64,000 bases of DNA, taken from positions 744,001 to 808,000 of the forward strand of contig NZ_JACLQD010000002.1 of NCBI RefSeq assembly GCF_014243445.1, in the 5' to 3' direction. Positions 11,453 through 31,464 of the stretch are shown piece by piece; the first letter of the stretch is position 1; each line of letters begins with the position of its first letter. Below the pieces are notes generated by a model, which was not told the DNA's origin, searched no databases, and saw nothing but the letters and a program-made list of their open reading frames with translations. A program made the position numbers and the translations under genes. This stretch comes from Paragemmobacter straminiformis. GTDB taxonomy: Bacteria; Pseudomonadota; Alphaproteobacteria; Rhodobacterales; Rhodobacteraceae.

Positions 11453-11578
11453 GGCCCGTATCCTTTTCCTGACGCAGGATGGCTGCATCGCTGGAATTAG
11501 GCTGGCACTGTCGCAAAACAATTTCAAGTTTGAAATTTATGGGCTTGAAATTTATCCGGCCGCGCGGATGATGGGCGC
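11453..11578. promoter_or_regulatory. Divergent promoter region with MarR-like operator
   Basis: This 126-bp gap separates the leftward monooxygenase/reductase operon from the rightward hydratase operon. It contains the AT-rich perfect inverted repeat ATTTCAAGTTTGAAAT (11521-11536) and a further copy of the half-site, CTTGAAAT (11544-11551); TTGAAATTTAT occurs twice, at 11530 and 11545. Such a site between divergent operons that include marR is a likely MarR operator. The same half-sites, ATTTCAAG and CTTGAAAT, occur at 31437-31464. Confidence 0.65.
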
Positions 11579-12334
11579 ATGGGATTGCAGATCGAACAAC
11601 ATGCGGGCTGGGTGCGGCTTGTGCTGGACCGGCCCGAGGCGCGAAACGCCTTGAATACCGCGCTTTTGGCCGAAATCGCGGCTGCCTTGACGCGGCTGGC
11701 GGAAGATGCCGCCTGCCGGGTGGCGGTGCTTGCGGGGGCTGGCGGGCATTTCGCGGCAGGGGCCGACATCGGCGAGATCGAGGGGAAATCGGCCGCCGAG
11801 GGCGCCGCCGATCCGCGCAAGGCGCATTGGGCGGCGATACGGGCCTTTCCCAAGCCGCTGCTTGCCGAGGTTGACGGCTTTGCGCTGGGGGGCGGGTTCG
11901 AGCTGGCGCTGATGGCCGATATCATGGTGCTGGGCCAGTCGGCGCGGCTTGGCCTGCCCGAGACGAACCTTGGCCTGATCCCCGGAGCGGGGGGCGGGCA
12001 GCGGTTGCTGGCGCTGGCCGGTCGGGCGCGGGCTGCGCGGATGGTGCTGACGGGCGAGGTCATCGACGCCGCCACCGCGCGGGACTGGGGCATTGCGGCC
12101 TATCTGGCCGAGGGCGATGCAGGCCCGTTGGCCGCAGATCTGGCAGGGAAGCTTGCGGCGCGCGCGCCGCTGGCGCTGATGGCGGCAAAGCGGGCGCTGG
12201 TCGCGGGCGACGAAGCGGGCCTTGCCTTGCAGGCCGAGCGGGCGGCGTTCGAGGCGCTTCTGGACAGTGCCGACAAGGCCGAGGGGATCCGCGCCTTTCG
12301 CGAAAAGCGCAAACCGGAGTTCAGGGGCGCATGA
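11579..12334 (+). CDS. Enoyl-CoA hydratase (crotonase with both catalytic glutamates)
   Basis: 251-residue enoyl-CoA hydratase. Oxyanion-hole segment AGAGGHFAAGADIGE, then the two catalytic glutamates Glu108 (ALGGGFELALM) and Glu128 (GLPETNLGLIPGAGGGQRL), so ordinary hydration of an enoyl-CoA is expected. It is the first gene of the rightward arm that shares the divergent promoter with the aminobenzoyl-CoA-type operon, and its TGA overlaps the ATG of the 3-hydroxyacyl-CoA dehydrogenase gene. Together the two genes supply the hydration and oxidation steps of beta-oxidation. C-terminal FREKRKPEF is typical of the family. Confidence 0.93.
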   Translation: MGLQIEQHAGWVRLVLDRPEARNALNTALLAEIAAALTRLAEDAACRVAVLAGAGGHFAAGADIGEIEGKSAAEGAADPRKAHWAAIRAFPKPLLAEVDGFALGGGFELALMADIMVLGQSARLGLPETNLGLIPGAGGGQRLLALAGRARAARMVLTGEVIDAATARDWGIAAYLAEGDAGPLAADLAGKLAARAPLALMAAKRALVAGDEAGLALQAERAAFEALLDSADKAEGIRAFREKRKPEFRGA

Positions 12335-13434
12335 TCGGGGTTGTCGGTCTGGGGGCGATGGGCCTTGGCATCGCGCAGGTTTTCGCGGCGGCGGGGCATG
12401 AGGTGCGGGTCACCGATGCCGCGCCCGCCATGCGCGACAGCGCCCTTGCGCGGCTGGCCGAGGCGCTGGCCCCGCGCGTCGCCAAGGGCGCGTTGAGCGG
12501 CGCGTCACGCGATGCGCTGCTGGCGCGGGTGACGGTGGTCGAGAGCGCCGGAGAGATCGGCCCCGTGATGCTGGCGGTCGAGGCGGTGGTCGAGCGGATC
12601 GAGGTGAAGCGGGCGGTCTTTGCCGCACTCGAGGCCGGATCGGGCGGGGCGGTCATGGCGACCAACACCTCGTCCATTCCGGTAGCCGAGATCGCCAGGG
12701 GCATGGCGCGGCCCGAACGGCTGGTGGGGTTGCATTTCTTCAACCCCGCGCCGGTGATGAAACTGGTCGAGGTGATCGGCCACGCGGGCAGCGATGCGGC
12801 GGCGATCGATCTGGCCCGCCGCGTGACCGAAGCGGCGGGCAAGGTGGTCATCGCCGCACCCGACCGCCCCGGTTTCATCGTCAACCGCTGCGCGCGGCCC
12901 TTTTACGGCGAGGCGCTGGCCCTGCTTGCGGAAGGGCGCGGCGCGGCCGAGGTGGATGCGGCGATGGTGGCTGCGGGCTACAGGATCGGCCCCTTTGGCC
13001 TGATCGACCTGATCGGGGCCGACATCAACCTTGCCGCGACCGAGGGGCTGGCGGCGGCGATGGGCGGGCATCCGCGCTATCATGTCTTTGCCGCGCTGCG
13101 CGAACAGGTGGCGGCGGGGCGTCTGGGACGCAAATCGGGGGCGGGGTTCGTCTATCCCTCGGGGGCGGTTGCGCCGCCTGCGGATGCGGCGCAGATCGCC
13201 CTGCGGATCGAGGCCACGCTGGTGAACGAGGCGGGTTGGCTGCTGGCCGAAGGCGGCGTCAGCGCCGGGGATATCGACACGGGCCTGACGCTGGGCCTGA
13301 ACTTTCCGCGCGGGCCCTTCGCCATGCTGCAAGCGCAGGGGCGCGCGGCGGTCCGCGCCACGCTGGCAGGTCTGGCGGCATCCGCCCCCCCTGCCCTGCG
13401 CGGGCGCTACGACCTGTCGCCGCTGCTGGCCTAG
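12331..13434 (+). CDS. 3-hydroxyacyl-CoA dehydrogenase (PaaH/FadB-like)
   Basis: 367-residue NAD-dependent 3-hydroxyacyl-CoA dehydrogenase. NAD motif GLGAMGLG near the N-terminus, catalytic His135 in GLHFFNPAPVMKLVEV, and 3HCD C-terminal domain beginning near PDRPGFIVNRCARPFYGEAL. A second, partial C-terminal repeat (ATLVNEAGWLLAEGGVSAGDIDTGLTLGLNFPRGPF) makes it longer than the 280-residue butyryl-type enzymes and similar to PaaH-type proteins. It follows the hydratase with an ATGA overlap. The TAG stop codon lies in the first unit of an 18-bp tandem repeat shared with the convergent iorB gene. Confidence 0.93.
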   Translation: MIGVVGLGAMGLGIAQVFAAAGHEVRVTDAAPAMRDSALARLAEALAPRVAKGALSGASRDALLARVTVVESAGEIGPVMLAVEAVVERIEVKRAVFAALEAGSGGAVMATNTSSIPVAEIARGMARPERLVGLHFFNPAPVMKLVEVIGHAGSDAAAIDLARRVTEAAGKVVIAAPDRPGFIVNRCARPFYGEALALLAEGRGAAEVDAAMVAAGYRIGPFGLIDLIGADINLAATEGLAAAMGGHPRYHVFAALREQVAAGRLGRKSGAGFVYPSGAVAPPADAAQIALRIEATLVNEAGWLLAEGGVSAGDIDTGLTLGLNFPRGPFAMLQAQGRAAVRATLAGLAASAPPALRGRYDLSPLLA

Positions 13435-13494
13435 GCGAAACTGCTGGCCTAGGCGAAACTGCTGGCCTAGGCGAAACTGCTGGCCTAGGCGAAA
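13423..13494. repeat. Four tandem copies of an 18-bp unit carrying stop codons on both strands
   Basis: The unit CTGCTGGCCTAGGCGAAA is present four times without mismatch (13423-13440, 13441-13458, 13459-13476, 13477-13494). Each unit holds the palindrome GCCTAGGC, so each reads Leu-Leu-Ala-stop to the right and Phe-Ala-stop to the left. The rightward dehydrogenase stops in unit 1 (TAG 13432-13434) and the leftward iorB stops in unit 4 (TAG on the minus strand, 13485-13487). Because the unit is a multiple of three, gain or loss of copies leaves both proteins unchanged. Confidence 0.95.
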
Positions 13495-15029
13495 CTGCGG
13501 ATCGTCTGGATCGCGCCGTCGAGCGCCTTGCCCTCTTCATCCCTGAGCGCGGCTTCACGCAGGCGGCGCGCCCAGTCGGCGGCATCGTCGCGGCCGGCCA
13601 CAAGGGCGATGGCGTCGATCACGCGGTCGAATTTCGACAGGCCGCGCGCATGGGTGTCGGAATAGCCTTTGACGAGGCGGCGGCAGCGTATGACCTCGAC
13701 CGCGAGCGCGTAATCGGTGGCGCGGTAGCCAAGGGCCAGCGCAAGCCAGCGGTCGAGATGGGCCACCTCTTGCGCGTGGCGAAGGGTGCGCGGACGCCAG
13801 AAGCGCAGACCGCCGATCAGGTAGAGCGTGACAAAGGCGGTCAGGCTGTCGCTGCGCAGGCGGCGGCCCTTGTCGAACCAGCGGGTCAGGCGGGACATCC
13901 ACTTGGGATCGGCCTGCACCCTTGCGCCAAGGCGGGCGGGCAGAAGGCCGGCAATCTCTTCGGCACGGGGGTGGAAGAATTCGGTCAGTTGCAGCACGTT
14001 CTGGTCGCGCAGGCCCATTTCGCGGGCGATGCGGGCGCTGCGGCTGCCACGGGTTTTCAGGTCGGCCACGCGGATCACATCGTCATAGGCCATCGCATTG
14101 GCGATGTATTTCGCAGCCTCGCGCGTCAGGGCATGGCCAAGGGCCGGATCGTCCTGTGCCAGAACGGCATCGAGGCGGGCAAGGTAGGTTTCGCCATAGG
14201 CAAGGTTCTGGAAGCCGACCACCTTTTGCAGGCCCGGCAGGGCAAGTTCGGCCACGGGCGCGGGCAAGGCGGCCACGCGGGACTGAAGCCTGTGCCACTG
14301 CGCCAGCAGGGCGGCGGGGCCTTTGGCGACCGGTGCCTTGGGAGGGGCGGCGGGTTCGTCCTGTTGCTGCGGGGCCTGTGCGGCCTCGAAGCCTGCGGCA
14401 AAGGCGCGGAGCGAGCCTTCGATGCCCTTGCCGCCCGCGCGGATGGCGGCCTCATAGGCGTCGCGCCCGAAGGGCAGCGCCCCCGACCCTGCGAGTGCGC
14501 CCAGAAGCGAGGCGGAAATGACCGACCCGTTGGCAATGGCCAGACGGTCGAAATCGGCGGCGATGAAGCGGCGCGCGGCGATGGCGGCGGCGGCCATCAC
14601 CTCGTCGCTGTCGGCGATTCCGTCACCGGGGACCATCTTTTCCGACACGGCCAAGGCGCGGTGGGTCGAGGTGATGAGCGTGGTGCGGTCGGGTGTTACA
14701 AAACCGCGGATGATCGAGCGGCCCGCCTCCATCATTTCGGCGGTCACCATGATGTCGACATCGCCCGCGGCGGGTTGCAGCGAAAAGACCGGCATCGCGC
14801 CATCGGCGGGCATCGGGGCCATTTCGACGTAATAGACCGTGGCCCCCGTGCGCTGCGACACGCCCGCGACCGAGGTTGCCTGCGCGGCATAGCCGTTGGC
14901 GCGGGCGACGGCTTCGATCCAGCCGGTCAGCACCCCGCCGCCCTGCCCGCCCACGGCGAGGATGGCAAGCTTGATGATCCCGCCAAGGGCGGCATCGGGG
15001 CGCGGGGTAAAGCCTTCGTGCAGGGTCAT
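13485..15029 (-). CDS. iorB: Indolepyruvate (aryl-2-oxoacid):ferredoxin oxidoreductase, beta subunit fused to DUF6537-type domain
   Basis: 514 residues. The first roughly 200 form the pyruvate-ferredoxin-oxidoreductase gamma-type domain (ILAVGGQGGGVLTGWI, then SVAGVSQRTGATVYYVEM), which binds CoA and works with the TPP/Fe-S alpha subunit. The rest (about 250-510) is the long C-terminal extension found in the proteobacterial two-gene form of the enzyme; archaeal IorB consists of the first part only. Family reaction: aryl-pyruvate + CoA + oxidised ferredoxin to aryl-acetyl-CoA + CO2. Its ATG overlaps the iorA stop codon. The start at 15029 was chosen for that overlap; the open extension upstream is out of character. 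The stop codon lies in the 18-bp tandem repeat. Confidence 0.88.
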   Translation of the reverse strand: MTLHEGFTPRPDAALGGIIKLAILAVGGQGGGVLTGWIEAVARANGYAAQATSVAGVSQRTGATVYYVEMAPMPADGAMPVFSLQPAAGDVDIMVTAEMMEAGRSIIRGFVTPDRTTLITSTHRALAVSEKMVPGDGIADSDEVMAAAAIAARRFIAADFDRLAIANGSVISASLLGALAGSGALPFGRDAYEAAIRAGGKGIEGSLRAFAAGFEAAQAPQQQDEPAAPPKAPVAKGPAALLAQWHRLQSRVAALPAPVAELALPGLQKVVGFQNLAYGETYLARLDAVLAQDDPALGHALTREAAKYIANAMAYDDVIRVADLKTRGSRSARIAREMGLRDQNVLQLTEFFHPRAEEIAGLLPARLGARVQADPKWMSRLTRWFDKGRRLRSDSLTAFVTLYLIGGLRFWRPRTLRHAQEVAHLDRWLALALGYRATDYALAVEVIRCRRLVKGYSDTHARGLSKFDRVIDAIALVAGRDDAADWARRLREAALRDEEGKALDGAIQTIRSFA

Positions 15030-17173
15030 GCCGGAACCTCGAATGACAGGCGCTTGGCGGCGCGGCGGGCTTGCAGCCAGCCGATGATGCGGCCGCGCCA
15101 CGTGGCGAGGCGCTTTTCCCACGGGGTCGGGTTGTGGACCACGTCGGCGCGGTAGAACGAAGGGCAAAGCACGGCGGCATCGGCCACCTCGCCACAGTTG
15201 CCGCAGCCGACGCAGGACTGGTCGATGCTGGCGACAGGGTCGTCGCGCAGCGGGTCGTCAAGCCGCTTGAGCGAGAGCGACGGGCAGCCCGACAGGCGGA
15301 TGCAGGCGTGGTCGCCGGTGCAGATGTCTTCGTCGACGCCGAAGCGCGGGGCCTCGACGCGGCGGCCCTCGCGGATCGCCTGTTGCGCCAGCGGCTTTTC
15401 GCGGCGCTGCTTGTTGAGCATGCATTCCGACGAGGCGACGATCACCTTGGGGCCGGGGGTGTCGGTGGTCAGCGCCTCGCGCAGCACGTCGCGCATGTGG
15501 CCCACGTCATAGGTGCGGTCCACCTCGCGCACCCAGTCGATGCCGATGCCGCGCAAGGCCTTGGAAATCGGGTGCTTGGTCGCCTTGGTCGGGTTGTCGG
15601 CGCGCGACGACATGATGTCCTGCCCGCCGGTCGCGGCAGAGTAGTAGTTGTCGACGATCACCGCCACGCCATCGGATTTGTTGAAGGCCATGTTGGTGAA
15701 CGAGGATGACAGCCCGTTGTGCCAGAAACCGCCGTCGCCGATGATCGACACGGGCCGCCGTTCGCCGCCGCCGTCGAAGGCCGCATTGGCGGCGGGGCCG
15801 AGGCCATAGCCCATCGTGGCACCGCCCACCTCGAACGGCGGAAGCGAGCCGAAGAGGTGGCAGCCGATATCGGCGGTGATCTGGAGCTTGCCGGTTTCCT
15901 TTTGCACCAGCTTCATCGCGGCAAAGATCGGCCGCTCCGGACAGCCGGTGCAAAAGCCGGGCGGACGGATCGGGACGGTCTTGGTCAGATCGGGGATCCG
16001 GGGCTTGTCCTCGTTCGGGGCGCGGACAAGGGCGGGCAACATCTCGGGGGCGGCCTGTTTCAGGAAGGCGGCGATGCTGTCGAGCATGACCTGACCGGTG
16101 TATTCCCCCGCCATCGGGAAGATGTCCTTGCCGTGCAGGCGCAGCGACGATCCCTGCCGGTAAAGGAAGGTGGACAGTTGCTGTTCGATGAATTCGGGCT
16201 GGCCTTCCTCGACCACGAGAATGTGGTCCTTGCCTTGGCAAAAGGCGTGGAATTCCGAGGACACCAGCGGATAGGTGACGTTCAGGACGTAAAGCGGCAC
16301 CTGCGTATTGCCGAAAAGGTCGGCAAGGCCAAGCCGTTGCAGGGCACGGATCACGCCGTTGTACATGCCGCCTTGCAGGATGATGCCGAGGGGGGCTTTC
16401 TCGGGGCCGAACATCTCGTTCAGCTTGTGGTCGAGGATGAAGCGTTCGGCGGCGGGCCAGCGGTTCCTGACCTTGTCCTGTTCATGGGCAAAGGACATGG
16501 GCGGCAGGACGACGCGGGCGAAATCGGATTGCGGGTTCGACAGCGCCTCGCGCACCGAAAGCGCGGGGCGCTTGTTGTCGCGGGTGGTGAACGACCCCGT
16601 CACGTGGCACGAGCGGATGCGCACCATCAGCATGACGGGGGTGTTCGAGGCTTCGGACAGCTCGAACCCGTCCTTTACGGCCTTGGTGATGCAGGGCAGG
16701 TTCGGGCGCGGGTCCAAGAGCCAGAACTGCGATTTCATCGCAAAGGCGTGGCTGCGTTCCTGCATGATCGAGGAGCCTTCGCCGTAATCCTCGCCCACGA
16801 TGATGAGAGCGCCGCCGTTGACGCCGGAGGAGGCAAGGTTCGCCAGCGCGTCAGAGGCCACGTTGACCCCGACCGAGCCCTTGAACGTCACGGCCCCGCG
16901 GATCGGGTAATGCACCGAGGCCGCCAGCATGGCGGCGGCCGCGGCCTCGTTGGCGTTGGCCTCGTAGCGCACGCCGAGTTCGGCAAGCAGTTCCTCGGCA
17001 TCGGCCAGAACGTCCATCAGGTGGCTGATCGGCGCGCCCTGATAGCCGCCGACATAGCCCACGCCGTTCTCCAAAAGAGCCTTGGTGATGGCAAGGATGC
17101 CTTCGCCCGTAAAGGTTTCGCCCGCGCCGAGGCGCAGATCTTCGACTTCCGCCTTGAAGGACCGTTCGGCCAT
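15026..17173 (-). CDS. iorA: Indolepyruvate (aryl-2-oxoacid):ferredoxin oxidoreductase, alpha subunit
   Basis: 715-residue TPP enzyme subunit. Order: pyrimidine-binding domain (about 20-200), central domain, TPP-binding domain with GDG at 479-481 followed by the conserved Asn in VIVDNYYSA, and a C-terminal ferredoxin domain starting near Cys618 with CTGDHACIRLSGCP and CVGCGNC...CP, enough for two [4Fe-4S] clusters. FCTGCPERPIF is the usual family motif. It decarboxylates aryl-pyruvates to aryl-acetyl-CoA, with ferredoxin as acceptor. It lies in a leftward operon cyclase - flavoprotein - marR - iorA - iorB, so the oxoacid probably arises from the compound handled by the neighbouring flavoproteins and importer. 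The true substrate may not be indolepyruvate. Confidence 0.91.
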   Translation of the reverse strand: MAERSFKAEVEDLRLGAGETFTGEGILAITKALLENGVGYVGGYQGAPISHLMDVLADAEELLAELGVRYEANANEAAAAAMLAASVHYPIRGAVTFKGSVGVNVASDALANLASSGVNGGALIIVGEDYGEGSSIMQERSHAFAMKSQFWLLDPRPNLPCITKAVKDGFELSEASNTPVMLMVRIRSCHVTGSFTTRDNKRPALSVREALSNPQSDFARVVLPPMSFAHEQDKVRNRWPAAERFILDHKLNEMFGPEKAPLGIILQGGMYNGVIRALQRLGLADLFGNTQVPLYVLNVTYPLVSSEFHAFCQGKDHILVVEEGQPEFIEQQLSTFLYRQGSSLRLHGKDIFPMAGEYTGQVMLDSIAAFLKQAAPEMLPALVRAPNEDKPRIPDLTKTVPIRPPGFCTGCPERPIFAAMKLVQKETGKLQITADIGCHLFGSLPPFEVGGATMGYGLGPAANAAFDGGGERRPVSIIGDGGFWHNGLSSSFTNMAFNKSDGVAVIVDNYYSAATGGQDIMSSRADNPTKATKHPISKALRGIGIDWVREVDRTYDVGHMRDVLREALTTDTPGPKVIVASSECMLNKQRREKPLAQQAIREGRRVEAPRFGVDEDICTGDHACIRLSGCPSLSLKRLDDPLRDDPVASIDQSCVGCGNCGEVADAAVLCPSFYRADVVHNPTPWEKRLATWRGRIIGWLQARRAAKRLSFEVPA

Positions 17174-17183
17174 GATGTTCCCG

Positions 17184-17669
17184 TCAGATCTCGTGTTTGC
17201 GGATATTGGCCAGCATCTTTTGCAGCGTGCCGACAAAGGCGCGGCGTTCGGCCTCGTCTATGCCCTTGAACATGCGGGCGTAGCTTTCGGCCATGCGGGG
17301 CCAGAGGGTTTCAAAGGTGGTGCGGCCCGCTTCGGTGATGAAGACGCGGGTGGCGCGGCTGTCTGTGGCATCCGCCTCGCGCCGGATCAGCCCTTCGGCG
17401 GCCAACTGGTCAAGGGCGCGCGACAGGGTGGATTGTTCGACGACCGCATAGACGGCCAGTTCGCGGATCAGCGGCGCGTCGATCACCGACAGAACCGCAA
17501 GCGCGCGCATCTTGGGCGTGGACAGGCCCAGATCGGCCATCTCGTCGCGCAGCGAGGCGTTGTAGCGGCCCATGATGCGGTTCATCAGATAGGGCGCATA
17601 GTTCGACAGGCCGATCTCGCCGAGGCGGGTATCGGTGGGCGGCGGTTTGGCGGGGCTTTGGTCGGTCAT
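17184..17669 (-). CDS. MarR-family transcriptional regulator (second)
   Basis: 161-residue MarR protein: dimerisation helix GLSNYAPYLMNRIMGRYN, recognition region VVEQSTLSRALDQLAAEGLIRR, wing DATDSRATRVFITEAG. The start at 17669 gives MTDQSPAK and overlaps the stop codon of the upstream flavoprotein; the longer open frame is shadow sequence. The gene sits inside the operon cyclase - flavoprotein - marR - iorAB. Its likely target is the AT-rich palindromic region between the two divergent operons (20139-20158). It is distinct in sequence from the MarR at 7990-8430. Confidence 0.9.
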   Translation of the reverse strand: MTDQSPAKPPPTDTRLGEIGLSNYAPYLMNRIMGRYNASLRDEMADLGLSTPKMRALAVLSVIDAPLIRELAVYAVVEQSTLSRALDQLAAEGLIRREADATDSRATRVFITEAGRTTFETLWPRMAESYARMFKGIDEAERRAFVGTLQKMLANIRKHEI

Positions 17670-19222
17670 GCGCCCAGCCTTTTCGCCGCAAGGAAGCCCG
17701 AGCCGCCGCCGAGGCCGGGACCGGGATGGGTCGAGGCGCCGATCTGCACCAGCCCGCGCGGCAGGTCGGGCGCCGCGGCAAAGGGGCGGAACAGGAAGAA
17801 CTGGTCGATGCTGCACAGGCCCCCGTAGGGGTCGCCGCCCACGAGGTTGATGTTCATCGCCTCGAGGTCGGCGGGCGAATGGGCGCGGCGGGCCAGCTTG
17901 ATCGCGGCGAAATCCTTGATGTGGCGCGACAGGATCGCTTCGATCCGGTCGGCAAAGGCCTCGCGCAGGGTGTCGGTCCATGTGCCGTCGGTTGCGATCT
18001 CGCCGCGCGCGTCGCCTTTGACCACGCGCGGCGCGTCGGGAATTTGCAGCCAGAGAATGGCCTTGCCCCCGGGGCAGCGCGACGGGTCGAGGCGGTGGGG
18101 CTGGCCCACGCAGATGGTCGGAGCTTCGGGCAGCAGGCCGCGTTCGGCCTCGTTCGCGGATTTCGAGACGGAATCGATGCCGTCGGCCAGATGGATCAGC
18201 GCCACGTCGTCAAGGCCGGGCGAGAGCCATTCGGGGGCGCGGTCGAGCGCGTAGTGAAGCTGGAAGTTGCCGCGCCCGTGCCGGAAGCCCTGTGCCGCCG
18301 TGCGGGTGGCGGGGCTGGCGGCCGGGCCGAGCAGACGGTTGGCAAGCTGTCCCGGCGTGACCGAGGCGAGGACCGAGGCGCAGGTGATCACCTCGCCCCC
18401 CGCAAGGGTGACGCCGGTCACGCGGCCATCGTTGACGGTGATACGCTCGACATCGGCGCCGGTTCGGAAGGTGCCGCCCTTCTCCTCGATCAGCGCGCGG
18501 AAGGCCGCGACGGCGCGGGCCGAGCCGCCCTTGACGACGGGCGCGCCTGCGGCTTCCAGCGCGAAGGCGATGACCTTGCCCATCTGGCCGGAATAGGTGC
18601 TTTCGGGTGTCAGGCCGCAATGCAGGACCCAAGGGGCGAAAAGCGCCTGCACGAGCGGGCTTTGGTAGCCGGTTTCCAGCCATCCCCGCGCCGGCGCGAG
18701 CGCCGAGCCGAACCAGGCGGCAAGCCCGCGCACCCCGCGCTTGCGCGCCTGCGAGACAAGGAGTTTCAGCGTGGGCCAGCTCCAGAGATCGCCGCCGAGG
18801 ATGGAGAAGAGGAAGGGGGCATCGGTCTCGACCCCGCCCGCATCGGCGGCATGGCGCGCGCCGTCGCCCGGGGCGAGGGCGTCGAAGGCCGCGACATTGG
18901 CGGCGCGGTCCATCGTCAGCACCAGCGCCGAGCCATCGGGGCGCAAGACGGCCGTGGGGCGGGCGCTGTGGCAATATTCGAACCCGTGCCGCGCCAGATG
19001 CGGCCCGAGTGCGGCCCCTGCGGGCGAGGTCATGAACAAGACCCAAGTTGCCGCCATCGTGTCATGGCGGAACCCCGGCAGGGTCAGTTCCTCGGTCCGC
19101 AGGCAACCGCCGATCACGTCGTTGCGTTCCAGCATCAACACGCGCTTGCCCTTGATCGCGAGCAGGGCGCCCGCGACCAAGGCGTTGATGCCCGATCCGA
19201 TGATGACGTGATCCGGCTGCAT
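17666..19222 (-). CDS. Phytoene-desaturase-like (CrtI family) FAD oxidoreductase
   Basis: 518-residue flavoprotein with an N-terminal FAD fold (DHVIIGSGINALVAGALLAIKGKRVLMLERN), the motif ELTLPGFRHD typical of this CrtI-like family, and a C-terminal FAD segment (GLVQIGASTHPGPGLGGGSGFLAAKRL). Members of this broad family oxidise or isomerise many substrates; the name of the family does not imply carotenoid synthesis, and no other crt gene is near. A paralogue with the same layout is encoded at 20187-21755 in the divergent operon, so both probably act on related compounds. The gene is 3 bp downstream of the cyclase gene and overlaps marR. Confidence 0.87.
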   Translation of the reverse strand: MQPDHVIIGSGINALVAGALLAIKGKRVLMLERNDVIGGCLRTEELTLPGFRHDTMAATWVLFMTSPAGAALGPHLARHGFEYCHSARPTAVLRPDGSALVLTMDRAANVAAFDALAPGDGARHAADAGGVETDAPFLFSILGGDLWSWPTLKLLVSQARKRGVRGLAAWFGSALAPARGWLETGYQSPLVQALFAPWVLHCGLTPESTYSGQMGKVIAFALEAAGAPVVKGGSARAVAAFRALIEEKGGTFRTGADVERITVNDGRVTGVTLAGGEVITCASVLASVTPGQLANRLLGPAASPATRTAAQGFRHGRGNFQLHYALDRAPEWLSPGLDDVALIHLADGIDSVSKSANEAERGLLPEAPTICVGQPHRLDPSRCPGGKAILWLQIPDAPRVVKGDARGEIATDGTWTDTLREAFADRIEAILSRHIKDFAAIKLARRAHSPADLEAMNINLVGGDPYGGLCSIDQFFLFRPFAAAPDLPRGLVQIGASTHPGPGLGGGSGFLAAKRLGA

Positions 19223-19225
19223 GGA

Positions 19226-20020
19226 TCAGCCCCGGGGCACGAGGGCCAGCGCGCGAATGGGCGAGCCGGTGCCGGATTTGATCTTGAGCGGCGCCGCGAT
19301 CAGGATCGCCCCCTTGGCGGGCAGCTTGTCGAGGTTGGCAAGGCTGGCAAGGCCGAAGCAGTTGTTCTTGTGCAAGAGGTTGTGCGCCGGGAACGGCGGC
19401 GTCATGCCCCCCGCCTGCCCCGCATCGGTGCCGATGCACTGGCTGCCCCAGCCGACGATCTTTTTCGACATCAGATATTCGATGACCTCGGCGGTCGGGC
19501 CGGGGGTGTGGGGGCCGGTGGCATCGGCGTTCAGGAACAGGTCTTCGTCATGGGCGCGCTTGTCCCAGTCCGAACGCAGCACCACCCATTCGCCGGCGTT
19601 GATCGCGCCATGCTTGGCCTCCCATGCCTTCACATGGTCGATGGTGAGCAGGAAGTCGGGGTTGGCGGCGCATTCGGCGGCGAAGTCCAGCACGTTGACG
19701 GGGGCGACGAGGCGCTGCACGTCAAGCGTGTCGGTGTAGCCGTCGGGATAATCCTTGCCGGTGATCCAGTGATGCGGCGCGTCGAAATGGGTGCCGGAAT
19801 GCTCGCCGAGCTTGAGCCAGTTCCACGCCCAGAAGGGGCCGTTCTGGTCATAGTTGGAAATGGTGTGGATCTCGATCTTGGGGGTGTCCTTGGCGAAATC
19901 CGGCGGCAGTTTCAGAAGCGGGGTGTCGGGGCCAAGAACGCCCGTGCAATCCACGACTTCGATCCCGCCCGAGGCGATCATCCCTGCGAGGGACGTAAGA
20001 ACTGCGGCTGAGGTCATCAT
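19226..20020 (-). CDS. Cyclase-family metal hydrolase (kynurenine formamidase type)
   Basis: 264-residue protein of the cyclase/KynB family. The metal-binding signature HxGTHxDxPxH is present as HSGTHFDAPHHW (74-85), with the further conserved GWGSQCIGTDAGQA segment. Relatives hydrolyse N-formylkynurenine, isatin or other amides and lactams. First gene of the leftward operon ending in iorAB. The start at 20020 has GGGAGAG a few bases upstream; an ATG three bases later is equally possible. In this context an amide or lactam derived from an indole/kynurenine-type compound is a sensible substrate, but sequence alone does not decide between formamidase, isatin hydrolase and others. Confidence 0.82.
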   Translation of the reverse strand: MMTSAAVLTSLAGMIASGGIEVVDCTGVLGPDTPLLKLPPDFAKDTPKIEIHTISNYDQNGPFWAWNWLKLGEHSGTHFDAPHHWITGKDYPDGYTDTLDVQRLVAPVNVLDFAAECAANPDFLLTIDHVKAWEAKHGAINAGEWVVLRSDWDKRAHDEDLFLNADATGPHTPGPTAEVIEYLMSKKIVGWGSQCIGTDAGQAGGMTPPFPAHNLLHKNNCFGLASLANLDKLPAKGAILIAAPLKIKSGTGSPIRALALVPRG

Positions 20021-20186
20021 TCACTCTCCCTGTGGAACGGTGCGAAGCTGTTTTCGCCCGTGCATCCGTTGTGCATCCCGCTGCGGTCTTTCCGGGCTGG
20101 CGCCGATTGTGCGGGGTCTGTGGAATCATGCTAGACAGATTTAAATGCATTTGCAAATATCCCGTCGAAACGAAACGGGGAATACG
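20021..20186. promoter_or_regulatory. Divergent promoter region with AT-rich nested palindromes
   Basis: Region between the leftward cyclase-iorAB operon and the rightward flavoprotein-ABC operon. At 20139-20158 it holds ATTTAAATGCATTTGCAAAT, in which ATTTAAAT, AAATGCATTT and ATTTGCAAAT are each perfect palindromes that overlap. In a GC-rich genome this is a strong candidate operator, most simply for the MarR protein encoded at 17184-17669. Confidence 0.6.
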
Positions 20187-21755
20187 ATGTCCGATAGCTT
20201 TGATGCGGTCGTGATCGGGGCCGGGCATAACGGCCTTGCCGCTGCGCTGCATCTGGCATCGAAGGGCTGGCGGGTCGGCGTGTTCGAGGGGGCCGCGACC
20301 GCGGGTGGCGCGGTCAAGACCGGCGAATACACCCTGCCCGGCTTTCGCCACGACTGGGCGGCGATGAATCTGTCGCTTTTCGCGGGAAGCCCGTTTTTCA
20401 AGGCGCACGGGGCTGAACTGCAACGGCATGGCTGCGCCTTTGTTCCGGTGGCGCGCCCCTTTGCGTCAAGCTTTCCGGACGGGTCATGGGTGGGCGTGTC
20501 CACCGACATGGCCGAAACGATGGCCGCGATATCGGCGCTTTCCCCACCCGATGCCGCCGTGTGGCAGCGGCTTTGCGCGGGCTTCGGCGCCGAGGCGCCG
20601 CATCTGTTCGGGCTTTTGGGCAGCCCGATGAAGATGCGTGCGCTTGCATATTTCATGTTCAAAACGATTCGTGCCAAGGGCGTTGCGGGCACGCTGGACA
20701 TGGCGCGGTTCCTGCTGTCCTCGCCCCGCGCCTTTCTTGACGAAACCTTTACCGACGATCGCGTCAAGGCGATGCTGGGCGCGTGGGGGATGCATCTGGA
20801 TTATGCGCCCGACATCGCGGGCGGCGCGATCTTTCCCTATCTCGAGGGGATGGCGGGGCAGGCCTTTGGCATGGTGCTGGGGCAAGGCGGGGCCGATACC
20901 ATCATATCGGCGCTGGTCGCGGCCATTCGCGCCCGTGGCGGCGCCGTGGAATGCGGGGTCAGGGTTGCGAGGGTGGTGCAGTCGAACGGCAAGGCCACGG
21001 GCATCGAACTGGCGGACGGGCGCAGGATTGCGGCCGCGAAAGCCGTGATCGCGGGTGTGGCGCCGAGGAACCTTGCCGCGCTGACGGGGCCGGTCGAGCC
21101 GCGTTTCGATGCGGCGATGGCGGCGTTTCACCATGCGCCGGGGACGATGATGATCCACCTTGCGCTGTCGGACCTGCCCGACTGGCGGGCGGGGGCGGCG
21201 CTGCGGTCTTATGCCTATGTCCATATCGCGCCGAGCCTTGACCAGATGGCGCGGACCTATGCGCAGGCGCAGGCGGGGATGCTGCCGGACGAGCCCATTC
21301 TGGTCGTGGGCCAGCCGACCAGCGTCGATGCAAGCCGCGCCCCGGCGGGCAAGCACACGCTTTGGGTGCAGGTGCGGATGGCCCCGGCGGCGATCAAGGG
21401 GGACGCTGCGGGCAAGATCGCGGCGCGCGACTGGGCCGATGCGGCGGCCCCCTTTGCCGGGCGGGTGCTTGACATCCTCGAGGCACATGCGCCGGGAACG
21501 CGCGCGAAGATCATCGGGCAACGCATTGTCACGCCTGTGGAATTCGAGACCGAGAATCCCAACCTGATCGGCGGAGACCAGGTTTGCGGCAGCCACCATC
21601 TGGGGCAGCACTTCCTGTTCCGGCCCGCGCGCGGCCATGCCAACGGATCGACACCGCTGGGCAATCTGCACCTGACGGGGGCTGCGGTCTGGCCGGGTGC
21701 AGGAACCGGGGCAAACCCCGGATTTCTTTTGGCGCAACGGCTTGCCGGAGCGTGA
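20187..21755 (+). CDS. Phytoene-desaturase-like (CrtI family) FAD oxidoreductase (second)
   Basis: 522-residue flavoprotein: SDSFDAVVIGAGHNGLAAALHLASKGWRV at the N-terminus, EYTLPGFRHDW in the same place as in the paralogue at 17666-19222, and the C-terminal GNLHLTGAAVWPGAGTGANPGFLLAQRL. The start at 20187 has GGGGAA seven bases upstream; the upstream ATG at 20145 lies inside the operator-like palindrome and is unlikely. It is first in the rightward operon and is followed, 58 bp later, by the binding protein of an ABC importer. Probably oxidises the imported compound or an early intermediate. Substrate unknown. Confidence 0.87.
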   Translation: MSDSFDAVVIGAGHNGLAAALHLASKGWRVGVFEGAATAGGAVKTGEYTLPGFRHDWAAMNLSLFAGSPFFKAHGAELQRHGCAFVPVARPFASSFPDGSWVGVSTDMAETMAAISALSPPDAAVWQRLCAGFGAEAPHLFGLLGSPMKMRALAYFMFKTIRAKGVAGTLDMARFLLSSPRAFLDETFTDDRVKAMLGAWGMHLDYAPDIAGGAIFPYLEGMAGQAFGMVLGQGGADTIISALVAAIRARGGAVECGVRVARVVQSNGKATGIELADGRRIAAAKAVIAGVAPRNLAALTGPVEPRFDAAMAAFHHAPGTMMIHLALSDLPDWRAGAALRSYAYVHIAPSLDQMARTYAQAQAGMLPDEPILVVGQPTSVDASRAPAGKHTLWVQVRMAPAAIKGDAAGKIAARDWADAAAPFAGRVLDILEAHAPGTRAKIIGQRIVTPVEFETENPNLIGGDQVCGSHHLGQHFLFRPARGHANGSTPLGNLHLTGAAVWPGAGTGANPGFLLAQRLAGA

Positions 21756-21813
21756 TAGAGTTCGACCAAGCAACACAACCAAAACAACAAGAACCATCCA
21801 CAGGGAAACGACC

Positions 21814-23337: not shown

Positions 23338-23357
23338 CGGGGCTTTTGCGACAAGGG

Positions 23358-23380
23358 CCGGGGGGCTTTGCGCCCCCCGG
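23358..23380 (+). terminator. Strong hairpin between binding protein and permease genes
   Basis: Perfect 9-bp stem CCGGGGGGC / GCCCCCCGG with a 5-nt loop, 21 bp past the binding-protein stop codon. No T-run follows, so partial termination or 3'-end protection of the upstream mRNA is more likely than a full stop. Confidence 0.65.
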
Positions 23381-23460
23381 CACCCCTGCGGGATATCTGA
23401 CGACAGAAACTGGGGGGCAAGGCCCCTGCCCCGCCATAGCCGTGCGGGGGGATGGGGCGG

Positions 23461-27408: not shown

Positions 27409-27489
27409 GATGGTTCCTCCCTTTGCGTTCAGCGACACGGAAAGGAGGCTTGCGTCAAGATGGGTTTTTCATGCCGCAAGCGGGGGCGG

Positions 27490-28608
27490 TCAGGGGCGCA
27501 GGTGGCGGCGCAGCGCATCGCAGAGGGTTTCGACCCCGTCATCGGTGGTGACGATTCCGGGCGAGAGGCGCAGCGTCTGGCCGCGCGAGTCGGCCGAAAT
27601 CCCCTCGTCCCGCAGGGCGGCGACGATTTGCGGCGCGGGCGGGTCGATGCGCAGCATGACCGAACCGCCGCGACGCGCTTCGGGGCGCGGGGTGACGAGG
27701 GTCAGCGACAGGTCGTCGGCGGCGGCGATGATGCGGGCGGTCTGGCGGCGGTTCTGCGCGGCGATGGCCTTGCGGTCGGCGCTGGCGTGCCAGTCGAGCG
27801 CGGGAAGCGAGGCGAGGGCCGCCATGCATCCCGGGGTGCCGTTGTCGAAACGGCGGATGTCGGGGGCATAGGCGAAACGGTCGAGGTCCCAGTTGAAGGG
27901 ATTGTCCTGACTGAACCAGCCACGCAATTCGGGTTGGCACAGCGCGATCAGCGGTTCGGCCACATGCAGCACCCCTGCCCCCGGTGTGCCGCACATCCAT
28001 TTCAGGCTGGTCGAGATGGTGAAATCGACGGCAGGGTCCGCCACGTCAAAGGGCAAAAGGCCGGCGGCCTGCGTGATATCGACCCCGATCAGGCTGCCCA
28101 TGCTGCGGCCATGCGCGACGAGGGCGGCAAGGTCGATGCGGTGCGAGGTGGTGGACGAGACCCAGGTCAGCAGCGCAAGGCCGACATCCGGCCCCCATGC
28201 GGCGGCGAAATCCTCGTCCTCGACATGGGCGGCGCCTTGGCGGAAGGGCACGGTATGGAGGGAAAATCCCATGCGTTCGGCAAGTCTGGTCAGCAGGAAG
28301 TGGTTCGAGGGGAAGCAATCGGCGCCGACCAGCACGCGTTTGCCGCGCAGCAGTCCGGGCGGAAGGGCGGTGACCAGCATGTGCAGGCTTTGCGTCACGC
28401 TTTCGGATGTGGTCAGCGTGCCTTGGGGGGCGTTGATGATGCCGCGCCAGCGGTCGATGAACCGCGCGCGCCCGCCCAAGAGATAGCCCCATTGCGCATC
28501 GTTCGCGGCGCCCCAGACCCCCGCGAATTCGGTCATGGCACGGGCGAGGTCTTCGGTCTTGCCGGGATACTGGCCGATGGAGTGATAGAGGAAATAGGCG
28601 TCTTGCAT
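27490..28608 (-). CDS. Kynureninase-like class V aminotransferase-fold PLP enzyme
   Basis: 372 residues. The PLP region matches kynureninase: VDITQAAGLLPFD (Asp that pairs with the cofactor nitrogen), then the Schiff-base Lys203 in TSLKWMCGTPGAG, then LRGWFSQDNPF and a late F(D)NGTP segment, corresponding to the GWFGH and GTQP regions of KynU. Kynureninase splits kynurenine into anthranilate and alanine. The protein is shorter than typical KynU (about 410-460), so another C-C lyase or lyase/epimerase of the class V family is possible. It is last in an operon with an amino-acid permease, a DUF1445 protein, an SRPBCC protein and an amino-acid binding protein. Anthranilate as product would feed the 2-aminobenzoyl-CoA-type locus at 5-13 kb. 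Confidence 0.76.
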   Translation of the reverse strand: MQDAYFLYHSIGQYPGKTEDLARAMTEFAGVWGAANDAQWGYLLGGRARFIDRWRGIINAPQGTLTTSESVTQSLHMLVTALPPGLLRGKRVLVGADCFPSNHFLLTRLAERMGFSLHTVPFRQGAAHVEDEDFAAAWGPDVGLALLTWVSSTTSHRIDLAALVAHGRSMGSLIGVDITQAAGLLPFDVADPAVDFTISTSLKWMCGTPGAGVLHVAEPLIALCQPELRGWFSQDNPFNWDLDRFAYAPDIRRFDNGTPGCMAALASLPALDWHASADRKAIAAQNRRQTARIIAAADDLSLTLVTPRPEARRGGSVMLRIDPPAPQIVAALRDEGISADSRGQTLRLSPGIVTTDDGVETLCDALRRHLRP

Positions 28609-28616
28609 GGGTCTTC

Positions 28617-29291
28617 CTAGCGGATATAGGCGCGCTGGAAGCGATGCTCCAGCCAACCGGTCAGCCGCACCAGCGGCCAGAGAAGGGCGACATAGATCAG
28701 TGCGGCACCGATCAGCGGGGTGGGGTTGGCGAAAAGCGCCTGCGCGTCGGTCGCCTGTTTGAGAAGGTCGGACATGGCGACGACCGAGGCGAGCGATGTG
28801 TCCTTGATGATGCTGACGCAATTCGAGGCATGCGGCGGGATCACGATGCGCATGGCCTGCGGGTAGACCACCTTGCGCATGGTCAACCAGAAGCCGAGAC
28901 CAAGGGCGGCGGACGCCTCGAACTGGCCTTTGGGCACCGACTGGATGCCCGCGCGGAACACTTCGGCGGCATAGGCGGCAAAGACCATCGACAGGGCAAC
29001 GGCGGCAGCGGCAAAGGAGGAAAGCACGATGCCCGCGAAGGGCAGCGCGTAGTAGATCAGGATCAGCACCACCAGCACCGGCATGGCGCGCATGAGGTCG
29101 GTGTATCCGATGGCGAGCAGTTGCAGCGGGCGGATCGCGTAAAGGCGCACCATCGCGAGGCCAAGGCCGAGCAGCGTGCCCAGCACGATGGCGGTGATGC
29201 CGAGCAGGATGGTGTTGGCAAGCCCCCGCAGCAGGATCGGGATCGAGCGCCAGAGGATGTCGGGATTGAAGAAGATGTCGACGACGCTCAT
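28617..29291 (-). CDS. Amino-acid ABC transporter permease (HisM/GlnP family)
   Basis: 224-residue permease of the polar amino-acid (PAAT) family: RGLANTILLGITAIVLGTLLGLGLAM at the N-terminus, and the EAA loop ASAALGLGFWLTMRKVVYPQAMRIVIPP. Its ATG overlaps the DUF1445 stop codon and the kynureninase-like gene follows after 8 bp, so it is in one operon with both. A single permease implies a homodimer. No matching ATPase gene exists in the operon or elsewhere nearby, so the ATPase must be shared or lie outside the window. Confidence 0.92.
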   Translation of the reverse strand: MSVVDIFFNPDILWRSIPILLRGLANTILLGITAIVLGTLLGLGLAMVRLYAIRPLQLLAIGYTDLMRAMPVLVVLILIYYALPFAGIVLSSFAAAAVALSMVFAAYAAEVFRAGIQSVPKGQFEASAALGLGFWLTMRKVVYPQAMRIVIPPHASNCVSIIKDTSLASVVAMSDLLKQATDAQALFANPTPLIGAALIYVALLWPLVRLTGWLEHRFQRAYIR

Positions 29292-30049
29292 GTCAGGCCT
29301 TTCAGACGATGATCGGTGATCAGCATGTGACCGGGGGCGTGGGTGATGGCAAAGGGCAATCGGGCCGAGGCGATGGCGCGCTCCATCGTCACGCCACAGG
29401 CCCAGAAAACCGGAACCTCGCCGGGCAGAAGATCGGTCAGGCCGATTCCGTCGATGGGGCGCGTGAGGTCGACGCCGATGGCGGCGGGATCGCCCGCATG
29501 GACGGGGGCGCCGTGGGTTTCGGGATGGGCCTTGGTGATGACGGTGGCGAGTGCGACCTGATCGGCGGGAATGGCGCGCATCGAGACGACGAGCCTGCCA
29601 CCGAAGCCGCCTGCCGCGTGGTTGGGAATGGCGGTGTCGAAGGCCGAACAACTGCGCCCCGCCCCGTGGCAGCGCAACGAGACGCCTGCTGCGACCAGCG
29701 CCGCCTCGAAGCTGAGCGAGCAGCCGATGGCAAAGGCCGTCATGTCGGGGGTCCAGTGGTCGGCCACATCCTGCACGCGGGCGACGGCCTGGCCGTTGCG
29801 GAACAGGCGGTAGAGCGGCAGGTCGTGGCGCAGGTCGAAATCTCCAAGCGCGGGCAGGCCCCATTCGCCCGCCGTCCCCCGTGCGAGCATCGGGCAGGCT
29901 GCCGGATTGGCGCGCAGGAAGGCTTCGAAATCATCGGCCCATGCGGCGGGGATGATGGCGATGTTTGCCTGCATGTAGCCCGGGCAAAGTGCTGCGGTCT
30001 GGCGCACTTCGCCCGCGCGGAAACGGGCGCGCCATGCGGCGGGGGTCAT
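29288..30049 (-). CDS. DUF1445 family protein (putative hydro-lyase / D-glutamate cyclase-like)
   Basis: 253 residues, the usual size of the family. Conserved features: LCPGYMQANIAIIP near the N-terminus, DHWTPDMTAFAIGCSLSFEAALVAAG in the middle, and PVFWACGVTMERAIASARLPFAITHAPGHMLITD at the C-terminus. Proteins of this family are annotated as hydro-lyases by similarity and are related to D-glutamate cyclase; reactions are known for few. Start and stop codons overlap those of both neighbours. Its position between an amino-acid importer and a PLP lyase suggests it acts on the imported amino acid or its product. Confidence 0.85.
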   Translation of the reverse strand: MTPAAWRARFRAGEVRQTAALCPGYMQANIAIIPAAWADDFEAFLRANPAACPMLARGTAGEWGLPALGDFDLRHDLPLYRLFRNGQAVARVQDVADHWTPDMTAFAIGCSLSFEAALVAAGVSLRCHGAGRSCSAFDTAIPNHAAGGFGGRLVVSMRAIPADQVALATVITKAHPETHGAPVHAGDPAAIGVDLTRPIDGIGLTDLLPGEVPVFWACGVTMERAIASARLPFAITHAPGHMLITDHRLKGLT

Positions 30050-30480
30050 GGCGCGGCCTTCCAGCCCTGTTCGATCTGGGATTTGAACAAGAGCACCTCG
30101 AGTTCGTGGGTCTTGCAGGTGCGCTGCCAGCGCGCATCGTCCATCCAGCCCGCGCGCCATGTGGTCATGGCGACGAGGCAGGCGGTTTCGGGCAGGCCCC
30201 AGTCGGGGCCGGAGGCCACGCGGATGCTGACGCGCGGCACGCGCGCGCCTGCGGGGCCAAGATAGAAGTCGATCAGGCCAAGGCGGCGGTCGGGGCGGAT
30301 TTCGACCTCGGCCCCCGAGCCGTCGAACAGCGAGGTGCCGCGCCAGAGGCCGGGTTCGCCCGTCGGGCGCAGGTCCATCGAGCCGAGCGCCCAGCGGCCA
30401 AGGCGGTGACCGTCGCTCAGGCAATCGAAGGCGTGGTCGAAGGGTACGTCGAGGCGCACCGAGGCGAGATGGGCGAACAT
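30046..30480 (-). CDS. SRPBCC-fold protein of unknown function
   Basis: 144 residues beginning MFAHLASVRLDVPFDHAFDCLSDGHRLGRWALG, an SRPBCC (START-like) N-terminal pattern, with a hydrophobic ligand cavity expected. There is no rigorous functional assignment. The start at 30480 gives this fold a clean beginning; no strong ribosome-binding site is seen. It follows the amino-acid binding-protein gene and overlaps DUF1445 by ATGA, so it is part of the same operon. Confidence 0.7.
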   Translation of the reverse strand: MFAHLASVRLDVPFDHAFDCLSDGHRLGRWALGSMDLRPTGEPGLWRGTSLFDGSGAEVEIRPDRRLGLIDFYLGPAGARVPRVSIRVASGPDWGLPETACLVAMTTWRAGWMDDARWQRTCKTHELEVLLFKSQIEQGWKAAP

Positions 30481-30507
30481 CGGGGAGACCTGAGGTAAGG
30501 GATGGGC

Positions 30508-30526
30508 GGGGGGCGATGCGCCCCCC
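30508..30526 (-). terminator. Hairpin after the amino-acid binding-protein gene
   Basis: Perfect 8-bp stem GGGGGGCG / CGCCCCCC with loop ATG, 11 bp beyond the stop codon of the binding-protein gene on the minus strand. As with 23358-23380 it lies between a binding-protein gene and the rest of its operon, and probably lowers expression of the downstream genes. Confidence 0.6.
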
Positions 30527-30537
30527 TGCCCCAAGGG

Positions 30538-31350
30538 TCAGTCGGCCGAGGTGGGAACCGGCATCGGGGTGACGGTGAAGCTGTCGGCCGCGGGGGCGAC
30601 GCCAAGCCATTTCTCGTAGATCGCGGCCATCGTGCCATCGGTCTTCATGTCGGAAATGATCTGGTTGACCGCTTCCAGCTTGTCCGAGCCCTTGGGCATC
30701 ATGATCGCGAATTTCTCGCCCGTCTTGATTTCGGTCGCCACGGCGAGGCCCTGCATCTGGGCAAAGGCGTAGCGCAGGCCGACCACATCGTTGACGGCGG
30801 CGTCGATGCGGCCATTGGCAAGGTCGGTCAGCATGTTGGCGGTGGTGTCGTAGCTTTTGTATTCGGCATAGCCGAGTTCGGCTTCACGCTCTTTCAGCCA
30901 GCTTTCGGGGAAGGAGGTGGCGATGGAGCCGACGATCTTGCCCTTGAGCCCCTCGGCCGAGGTGATGTCGGACCCTTCCTTGACGCCGATGCCAAGCGCG
31001 CCCTCGACGTAGGGCTGGGTGAAGGACTGGCTTTCGAGGCGTTCGTTGGTGATGGTGAGCGACGAGATGACCATATCGACACGGGACGAGGCCGAGGCGA
31101 CGAAAAGCGCCTTGAAATCCATGCCGTTGATTTCGGCCGTGGTGCCCATGCGCTTGGCGATTTCGTTGACGATGTCGACTTCGAACCCTTCGAAGGCGCC
31201 GCTTTCGGTCTTGTTCTCCCACGGGGGGTTGGCGGGATAGGAGCCGACCTTGAGCGCGTCCTGCGCGAAGGCGGTGGTGGCGGCGGTCATGCCGAAGCCG
31301 AGGGCGAAGATGGCGGCAAGGCCGAAGGTGCGGCGTGTCGTGTTGGTCAT
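30538..31350 (-). CDS. Amino-acid ABC transporter substrate-binding protein
   Basis: 270-residue periplasmic binding protein (SBP_bac_3). Signal peptide MTNTTRRTFGLAAIFALGFGMTAATTAFAQ, with AFA-QD as cleavage site. Mature region: LKVGSYPANPPWENKTESGAFEGFEVDIVNEIAKRMG, the typical start of polar amino-acid binders, and DVVGLRYAFA plus MPKGSDKLEAVNQII later. The start at 31350 has AGGAGG upstream. First gene of the leftward operon, facing the GntR regulator. Ligand probably an amino acid or related cation/aromatic compound; the neighbouring kynureninase-like enzyme makes kynurenine or a similar amino acid a candidate. Confidence 0.92.
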   Translation of the reverse strand: MTNTTRRTFGLAAIFALGFGMTAATTAFAQDALKVGSYPANPPWENKTESGAFEGFEVDIVNEIAKRMGTTAEINGMDFKALFVASASSRVDMVISSLTITNERLESQSFTQPYVEGALGIGVKEGSDITSAEGLKGKIVGSIATSFPESWLKEREAELGYAEYKSYDTTANMLTDLANGRIDAAVNDVVGLRYAFAQMQGLAVATEIKTGEKFAIMMPKGSDKLEAVNQIISDMKTDGTMAAIYEKWLGVAPAADSFTVTPMPVPTSAD

Positions 31351-31436
31351 GGCGTTCCTCCTGTTGGCGCCGGCCCTTGGGCCGCGATGGATTCGCGCCG
31401 GACCGATCTGGGGAAAGCGTCGCAGATTCCGTATCC

Positions 31437-31464
31437 ATTTCAAGCGATGTTTTGGGCTTGAAAT
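31437..31464. promoter_or_regulatory. Inverted repeat ATTTCAAGC-N10-GCTTGAAAT between divergent genes
   Basis: Perfect 9-bp arms (31437-31445 and 31456-31464) lie in the 198-bp gap between the amino-acid binding-protein operon and the gntR gene. It may bind the adjacent GntR protein. The half-sites ATTTCAAG and CTTGAAAT are the same as those at 11521-11551 in front of the aminobenzoyl-CoA-type operon, so the MarR protein of that operon is the other candidate. Confidence 0.65.

Follow-up and report, generated by a model that had tools for sequence, protein, structure and literature searches.

The window analyzed here (a stretch of 64,000 nucleotides from Paragemmobacter straminiformis, contig NZ_JACLQD010000002.1, positions 744,001 to 808,000) contains two divergent promoter gaps some 20 kb apart that share a pair of inverted 8-mers, and this report concerns the regulators that are likely to act on them. 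The first gap (site 1) separates an operon headed by the gene for a monooxygenase/reductase fusion protein, referred to as ACMR, from a divergent enoyl-coenzyme A (CoA) hydratase operon, and the second (site 2) separates an operon for an amino-acid importer and a kynureninase-like enzyme from a gene for a GntR-family regulator (Table 1). ACMR passes the NF006101 equivalog cut-off and is accordingly of the 2-aminobenzoyl-CoA monooxygenase/reductase or salicylyl-CoA 5-hydroxylase type. The same operon encodes a MarR-family regulator, MarR1, which has the winged-helix domain of that family and, as judged from the sequence, a palindromic operator at the promoter that drives its own expression; its best NCBIfam match is HpaR, at a score under the HpaR cut-off. 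Since the aminotransferase class V protein of the importer operon falls below the TIGR01814 cut-off, it is named only "kynureninase-like".

Table 1. Genes and predicted regulatory features around the two promoter gaps, in window coordinates
Feature	Position	Strand	Basis
Acyl-CoA dehydrogenase	from 5952	-	family profile match
Enoyl-CoA hydratase-family protein, ACMR operon	7181..7993	-	NF006107, 472.8 bits (cut-off 330)
MarR1, MarR-family regulator, ACMR operon	7990..8430	-	PF01047, 57.3 bits (cut-off 24.6); PF12802, 55.7 bits (cut-off 27)
Short-chain dehydrogenase/reductase (SDR), ACMR operon	8427..9170	-	adh_short; gene order conserved in relatives
ACMR, flavin adenine dinucleotide (FAD) monooxygenase/OYE-type reductase fusion	9167..11452	-	NF006101, 1288.5 bits (cut-off 1078)
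-10 box CAGCCT, monooxygenase/reductase operon	11499..11504	-	sequence, spacing, conservation
Primary MarR operator (predicted), 16-bp palindrome ATTTCAAGTTTGAAAT	11521..11536	none	best window score, 30.9 bits
-35 box TTGAAA, monooxygenase/reductase operon	11522..11527	-	spacing to YAGCCT in aligned promoters
Secondary imperfect operator TTTATGGGCTTGAAAT	11536..11551	none	9.6 bits; 1-base overlap with primary
-35 box TTGAAA, divergent hydratase operon	11545..11550	+	several congeners have GATGAT/GAAGAT 16 bp further on (by inspection)
-10 box GATGAT, hydratase operon	11567..11572	+	inspection of window and congeners
Enoyl-CoA hydratase (PaaF-like), divergent operon	11579..12334	+	family profile matches
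3-Hydroxyacyl-CoA dehydrogenase, divergent operon	12331..13434	+	family profile matches
Kynureninase-like pyridoxal phosphate enzyme (aminotransferase class V)	27490..28608	-	TIGR01814, 61.9 bits (below cut-off 246.4)
ATP-binding cassette (ABC) permease	28617..29288, start estimated	-	PF00528
Putative hydro-lyase/D-glutamate cyclase family	29288..30070, start estimated	-	PF07286; NF003969, 291.5 bits (below cut-off 324)
Amino-acid-type solute-binding protein (family 3), first importer-operon gene	30538..31350	-	PF00497
Probable GntR box 1, GTATCC (consensus GTATAC)	31431..31436	none	between importer -35 and -10; recurs in orthologous gaps
-35 box TTGAAA, importer operon, within left 8-mer	31438..31443	-	constant distance to GntR box and -10 in closer orthologues, by inspection
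Degenerate MarR-like 16-mer GTTTTGGGCTTGAAAT	31449..31464	none	just upstream of importer -35; 16.3 bits
Probable GntR box 2, GTATCC	31538..31543	none	adjoins gntR start codon; recurs in orthologous gaps
GntR/FCD-family regulator	31549..32187	+	PF00392, 42.9 bits; PF07729, 77.2 bits; both past cut-off

At site 1 the 8-mers are ATTTCAAG (11521–11528) and CTTGAAAT (11544–11551), with a spacer of 15 nt, and at site 2 ATTTCAAG (31437–31444) and CTTGAAAT (31457–31464), with a spacer of 12 nt; a preliminary description of this DNA had given these positions and spacings exactly and had rightly located both pairs in divergent gaps (11453–11578 and 31351–31548). The window contains six copies of the 8-mer, relative to a mean of 0.89 in shuffled sequences, none of 100 of which reached six. 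The two remaining copies, at 25088 and 31111, lie inside transporter open reading frames (ORFs), as might be anticipated if the pairs were a random coincidence of AT-rich words. That explanation is extremely improbable in view of how the pair is distributed. The genome scan proposed with the preliminary description, allowing spacers of 8 to 18 nt, returned sites 1 and 2 alone in the 4.12-Mb genome, both in divergent gaps, and the control read backwards returned none. Among 149 genomes sampled from the family, 16 pair places were identified in 14 genomes, 13 of them upstream of an ACMR-type monooxygenase/reductase gene; the remaining three were an SDR–MarR–hydratase operon, site 2 itself and a place (L016) with no related gene within the 3 kb examined, and thus 14 of the 15 places besides site 2 are at the same type of operon. 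The frequency of the pair is far above chance. The SDR–MarR–hydratase operon that carries the pair upstream (L005, in genome G139) has no monooxygenase gene in the stretch examined and an identity of ~50%, and possibly represents a paralogous system.

The binding unit predicted at site 1 is a contiguous palindrome of 16 bp, which consists of the left 8-mer and the "third" half-site at 11529–11536; the latter had been described as an insertion into the pair, and is instead the true partner of 11521–11528. Upstream regions of ACMR genes were searched iteratively with the palindrome as seed, taking the best place per 250 bases. In total 71 such regions were collected, 63 of them distinct, after matches to ACMR of at most 58% identity had been dropped; the loci taken from a search of 394 family genomes were the 30 best ACMR loci among 143 ACMR-bearing genomes. 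A 16-bp palindrome with the consensus ATTTCAAGCTTGAAAT was identified in 62 of the 63 distinct regions, our own genome included, the region without a fit being L034, and it was present in 49 of 50 with exclusion of the 13 regions whose initial retrieval had relied on the 8-mer pattern. All 15 members of the genus with ACMR have an operator of ~24 bits or more (G104 being counted under L010), and 12 of the 15, again with the window strain included, retain the exact outer 8-mer pair. A marR1 homologue was found in 48 of the 49 distinct loci that have at least 1350 bases behind ACMR (the exception is L035). In the genome of the window strain the palindrome with three mismatches occurs at 14 places, and a profile search at E ≤ 10 recovered site 1 as the sole locus. 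We are highly confident in predicting a MarR1 operator at 11521–11536, and sequence could hardly make the designation of MarR1 as the repressor there any firmer. The proposal that a MarR protein binds at site 1 is supported by the conservation of the palindrome, seen in the comparison of this gap across relatives that had been suggested as a check, and by its top score in the window.

The outer 8-mers have a different explanation. At site 1 they contain two back-to-back TTGAAA -35 boxes belonging to the divergent promoters, and when 55 ACMR promoters were aligned, the best match to YAGCCT was mostly 16–17 bp past the ACMR -35 (15 + 34 placements, with ties counted multiply). As the hydratase -10 box ends only 6 bases before the base that precedes the start codon, a leaderless transcript is predicted for that operon; several congeners resemble this arrangement of -10 box and start, by eye. 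The ACMR -35 box would be covered by MarR1 on the primary operator and the hydratase -35 box by MarR1 on the overlapping weaker copy, so that binding would be expected to shut off both operons. The view that the inverted 8-mers are themselves the unit of binding was not supported, given that -35 boxes lie in the two outer 8-mers of site 1 and in the left 8-mer of site 2. When ATTTCAAG-N-CTTGAAAT was considered as an operator it was rejected on the grounds that the best operator is a contiguous 16-mer and that a score of -6.7 bits was obtained for the 16-mer that begins at 31437.

At site 2 a promoter was also apparent in the left 8-mer. In the closer orthologues the -10 box of the importer operon is CAGCCT, CAGGCT or AAGGCT (by inspection) and in the window strain a weak GACGCT with a spacing of 16 bp, while the -35 box varies in distant orthologues, such as TTGACA in L064 (by eye). 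The left 8-mer is the importer -35 box at a fixed place, and is thus part of a promoter that stands beside a probable GntR operator. Orthologues of the GntR protein are scarce (3 of 61 relatives and 10 of 394 family genomes, plus three close named ones), and 14 distinct site-2 gaps were compared, the sequence of L066 being the same as that of L042; L065 is included in the counts for 14 gaps and stands outside the 13-gap permutation test, the box-position comparison and the alignment. At least two GTATAC boxes, with one mismatch allowed, are present in all 14 gaps and an exact GTATAC in eight, and one-mismatch forms lie at matching places in the other gaps compared. The numbers of boxes clearly beat those in shuffled gaps (≤5% of shuffles getting there) in only four of the 14, and for the gap of the window strain 20% of shuffles also reach its two one-mismatch boxes. 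Because box counts alone seldom beat shuffles, the case for a GntR operator is based on placement, with one box by the importer promoter and one close to the gntR start, and on the more extended sequence, near AACNGTATACTTTT, that the boxes have in common. The shuffle control led us to lower our confidence in these boxes from very strong to good, and we designate them as probable.

A second element, the degenerate MarR-like 16-mer that contains the right 8-mer, overlies the same promoter region. With the site-1 matrix it ranks 2 of 63,985 window positions (the next scores 12.9 bits), it is still second when the matrix is trained outside the genus only, and a cmsearch of the window gave it 8.3 bits (E 0.44). 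The third-best match, at 20650–20665 (12.9 bits), is inside a flavoprotein ORF and is probably due to chance. Eight of the 14 orthologous gaps hold a 16-mer scoring at least 9, from 10.0 (L058) to 22.3 (L041), and none of 1000 column-permuted matrices reached eight gaps (for an earlier set, with eight of 13 gaps, none of 2000). In seven aligned gaps the GntR box, the -35 box and the MarR-like element form one conserved block. In the congener G154 a genome-wide profile search at E ≤ 10 identified site 1 and site 2 only, the latter at E 1.9, and in both G154 and the window strain (G000) the right half of the site-2 element is exactly the half-site CTTGAAAT.

Several observations weigh against a role for MarR1 at site 2. 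The profile search of our own genome at E ≤ 10 yielded site 1 without site 2, and among the gntR-bearing genomes G000, G154, G159, G223 and G427 site 2 was recovered in G154 only (with 1383 candidates scored in G000 and 150 in each of the other genomes). About 2.6 matches per genome equal to site 2 arise in simulated sequence, a 16-mer of this kind is missing from six of the 14 gaps (L059–L063 and L065), homologous gaps do not count as independent cases, and the elements of L057, L067 and L068 carry TTCAAAAT in place of the operator's CTTGAAAT. The failure to recover site 2 in the window strain and in all but one of the four further gntR-bearing genomes would fit an arrangement in which MarR1 acts only at site 1 and GntR only at site 2, the TTGAAA -35 boxes explaining why the 8-mers are alike and the right 8-mer being due to chance or an upstream-promoter element. 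The constant spacing between the -35 box in the left 8-mer and the GntR box, the other -35-like forms in distant orthologues (both by inspection) and the recurrence of GTATAC-type boxes across the gaps also favor such a division, which we consider a serious but lesser possibility. Against it are the rank of the 16-mer, second among MarR matches across 64 kb, its counterparts in eight of 14 gaps and its being one of two places recovered in G154, and inspection showed no conserved -10 box that would make the right 16-mer a -35 element. The right 8-mer (31457) was considered as the -35 box of gntR and discarded in the same way, there being no conserved -10 visible by eye in the orthologous gaps.

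It is also conceivable, if unlikely, that a different MarR-type regulator binds site 2, such as the product of a second MarR gene at 17184–17666 or the winged-helix protein encoded beside ACMR in relatives. Supporting this are the elements of L057, L067 and L068, which approach a distinct form, ATTTTGA-NN-TCAAAAT, and in L057 make up a perfect palindrome, and the similar operator beside the second winged-helix gene of relatives (L019 and L172), whereas the exact MarR1 half-site in the right half of the element in G000 and G154 argues for MarR1 itself. Palindromes resembling the operator were seen beside another winged-helix regulator gene in three loci (L019:4721–4736, L172 near 1501 and L133 near 893). 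In L019 and L133 the palindrome is CTTTCAAACATAAAAT, and in L019 and L172 it lies between the winged-helix gene and one for a luciferase-type flavin monooxygenase, close to the monooxygenase/reductase cluster.

As to MarR1 acting at site 2 of the window strain in addition to GntR, we find the evidence evenly balanced. The proposal in the preliminary description that the MarR protein binds at both sites is partly supported by the degenerate 16-mer and its presence in eight of 14 gaps, but the element is weak here and was not recovered genome-wide. GntR, which had been named as the rival for this site, probably does act there, as the recurrent boxes suggest, but dual control fits better than a choice of one or the other.

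The relationship between the two operons was assessed from their co-occurrence in the 394 family genomes. ACMR is present in 143 of these; the kynureninase-like gene is present in 49, and ACMR accompanies it in 43 of them (Fisher 2e-15). All ten genomes with gntR likewise have ACMR (3e-5; 9/9 and 9e-5 with our own genome excluded). These values ignore the relatedness of the genomes. A direct search of 13 genomes (the other gntR-bearing ones and that of L073) found full-length ACMR in all of them, and in eight genomes the kynureninase-like gene is within ~4 kb of ACMR. Gemmobacter caeni DSM 21823 (L068, L079) is an example of a Rhodobacteraceae strain in culture with both operons. Among 33 kynureninase-like loci, seven are within an importer-type operon and five are behind a same-strand hydroxyacyl-CoA dehydrogenase gene (two directly and three with ~1.2 kb between), and in L134 the kynureninase-like gene and ACMR share one gap. 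Between the two sites of the window (13485–20020) are indolepyruvate oxidoreductase-type genes, the second MarR gene, a CrtO/amine-oxidase-like flavoprotein gene and a putative cyclase gene; a cyclase gene of that kind follows in seven of the 33 kynureninase-like loci, with an iorA-like gene behind it in two.

Operators were also identified at genes that could supply the pathway with substrate. An operator scoring at least 15 was present at 26 of 48 canonical kynureninase promoters from ACMR-bearing genomes versus none of 42 from other genomes (p 9e-10), in a non-random sample comprising the first 90 entries, from 89 genomes, of a list ordered by profile score; kynureninase matches occur in 323 of the 394 genomes, and G223, in which the site was known beforehand, is outside this count. 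Genome-wide profile matches lie in front of a gene that passes the kynureninase cut-off in G223 and G427, and in G158 the profile matches at E ≤ 10 are confined to site 1 and the kynureninase-like gene's promoter. Further matches precede the gene for an ABC substrate-binding protein in G321 and a gene with no family match in G104, and one in G427 adjoins a gene for a luciferase-type monooxygenase. Against a general connection of this kind are the 22 of 48 canonical kynureninase promoters in ACMR-bearing genomes without the operator, among kynureninase promoters also that of our own genome, and the finding of the operator directly upstream in only three of the 33 kynureninase-like loci (L121, L134 and L137). 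The canonical kynureninase promoter of the congener G104 has no operator, and 18 of the 33 kynureninase-like loci have none in the upstream flank examined (about 1.5 kb, shorter in a few). Taken together, the co-occurrence of the kynureninase-like gene with ACMR and the operator at kynureninase genes make it very likely that the two operons belong to one pathway, as the preliminary description had surmised. Based on these data and on the established chemistry of kynureninase, anthranilate would be the compound that links them. For the choice between 2-aminobenzoyl-CoA and salicylyl-CoA as the substrate of ACMR, the association with kynureninase and the common operator give indirect evidence only.

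The explanation that we favor overall, with moderate confidence, is that of one MarR regulator of kynurenine-to-aminobenzoyl-CoA catabolism, with control of the importer mainly by GntR and more weakly by MarR1. MarR1 would repress a CoA-dependent aminobenzoate pathway by binding ATTTCAAGCTTGAAAT, repression of the ACMR operon would take in marR1 itself, and the likely inducer would be an aromatic compound of the pathway or its CoA ester. The importer operon would bring in an amino acid, and its kynureninase-like enzyme probably supplies the aromatic substrate. The importer promoter would be mainly under the local GntR protein, through the probable box between its -35 and -10 boxes, and the degenerate MarR1 operator that overlays it may confer a weaker, conditional repression. 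An extension of this explanation, for which we see about equal chances either way, is that MarR1 regulates this catabolism throughout the family and that genes supplying its substrate have repeatedly captured the operator, the wiring being kept as genes move. The capturing genes may have been canonical kynureninase genes, stand-alone kynureninase-like genes, kynureninase-like genes beside the MarR-controlled divergent operon and, in the window strain, a GntR-controlled importer operon, through a weak operator next to its -35 box. Such a predicted regulon would join the breakdown of tryptophan and kynurenine to an oxygen-dependent CoA aminobenzoate pathway in a large bacterial family. More generally, promoters may look co-regulated where -35 boxes resemble operator half-sites, and this analysis shows how the two can be separated.

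Literature searches returned no MarR regulator of this pathway in titles and abstract openings, in a body of literature with few subscription papers, and a text search for the operator core TTTCAAGCTTGAAA gave no match. Among known systems, IacR and IadR/MarR_73 are described as MarR-family repressors of aromatic catabolism, and the iad pathway ends in anthranilate (PMC9613470). Like these repressors (PMC9613470) and HpaR, MarR1 is encoded with catabolic genes and is predicted to act at their promoter. It differs from IacR, IadR and HpaR in its predicted operator, ATTTCAAGCTTGAAAT, in the CoA-dependent monooxygenase/reductase operon that it would control and in a predicted regulon that extends to kynureninase genes elsewhere. 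The GntR protein resembles other regulators with an FCD domain (PF00392 and PF07729) in its divergent gene and in its probable palindromic GTATAC-type boxes, one near its own start and one in the spacer of the target promoter; against the nearest NCBIfam equivalog, of the PhnR type, it scores far below the cut-off (73.9 of 271.5 bits). KynR is an Lrp/AsnC-type kynurenine regulator of Pseudomonas and other bacteria that controls kynureninase on tryptophan breakdown. The predicted MarR1 system is comparable to KynR in that kynureninase would be controlled in response to tryptophan breakdown, but its regulator belongs to a different protein family and the kynureninase promoters are marked by a predicted MarR operator.

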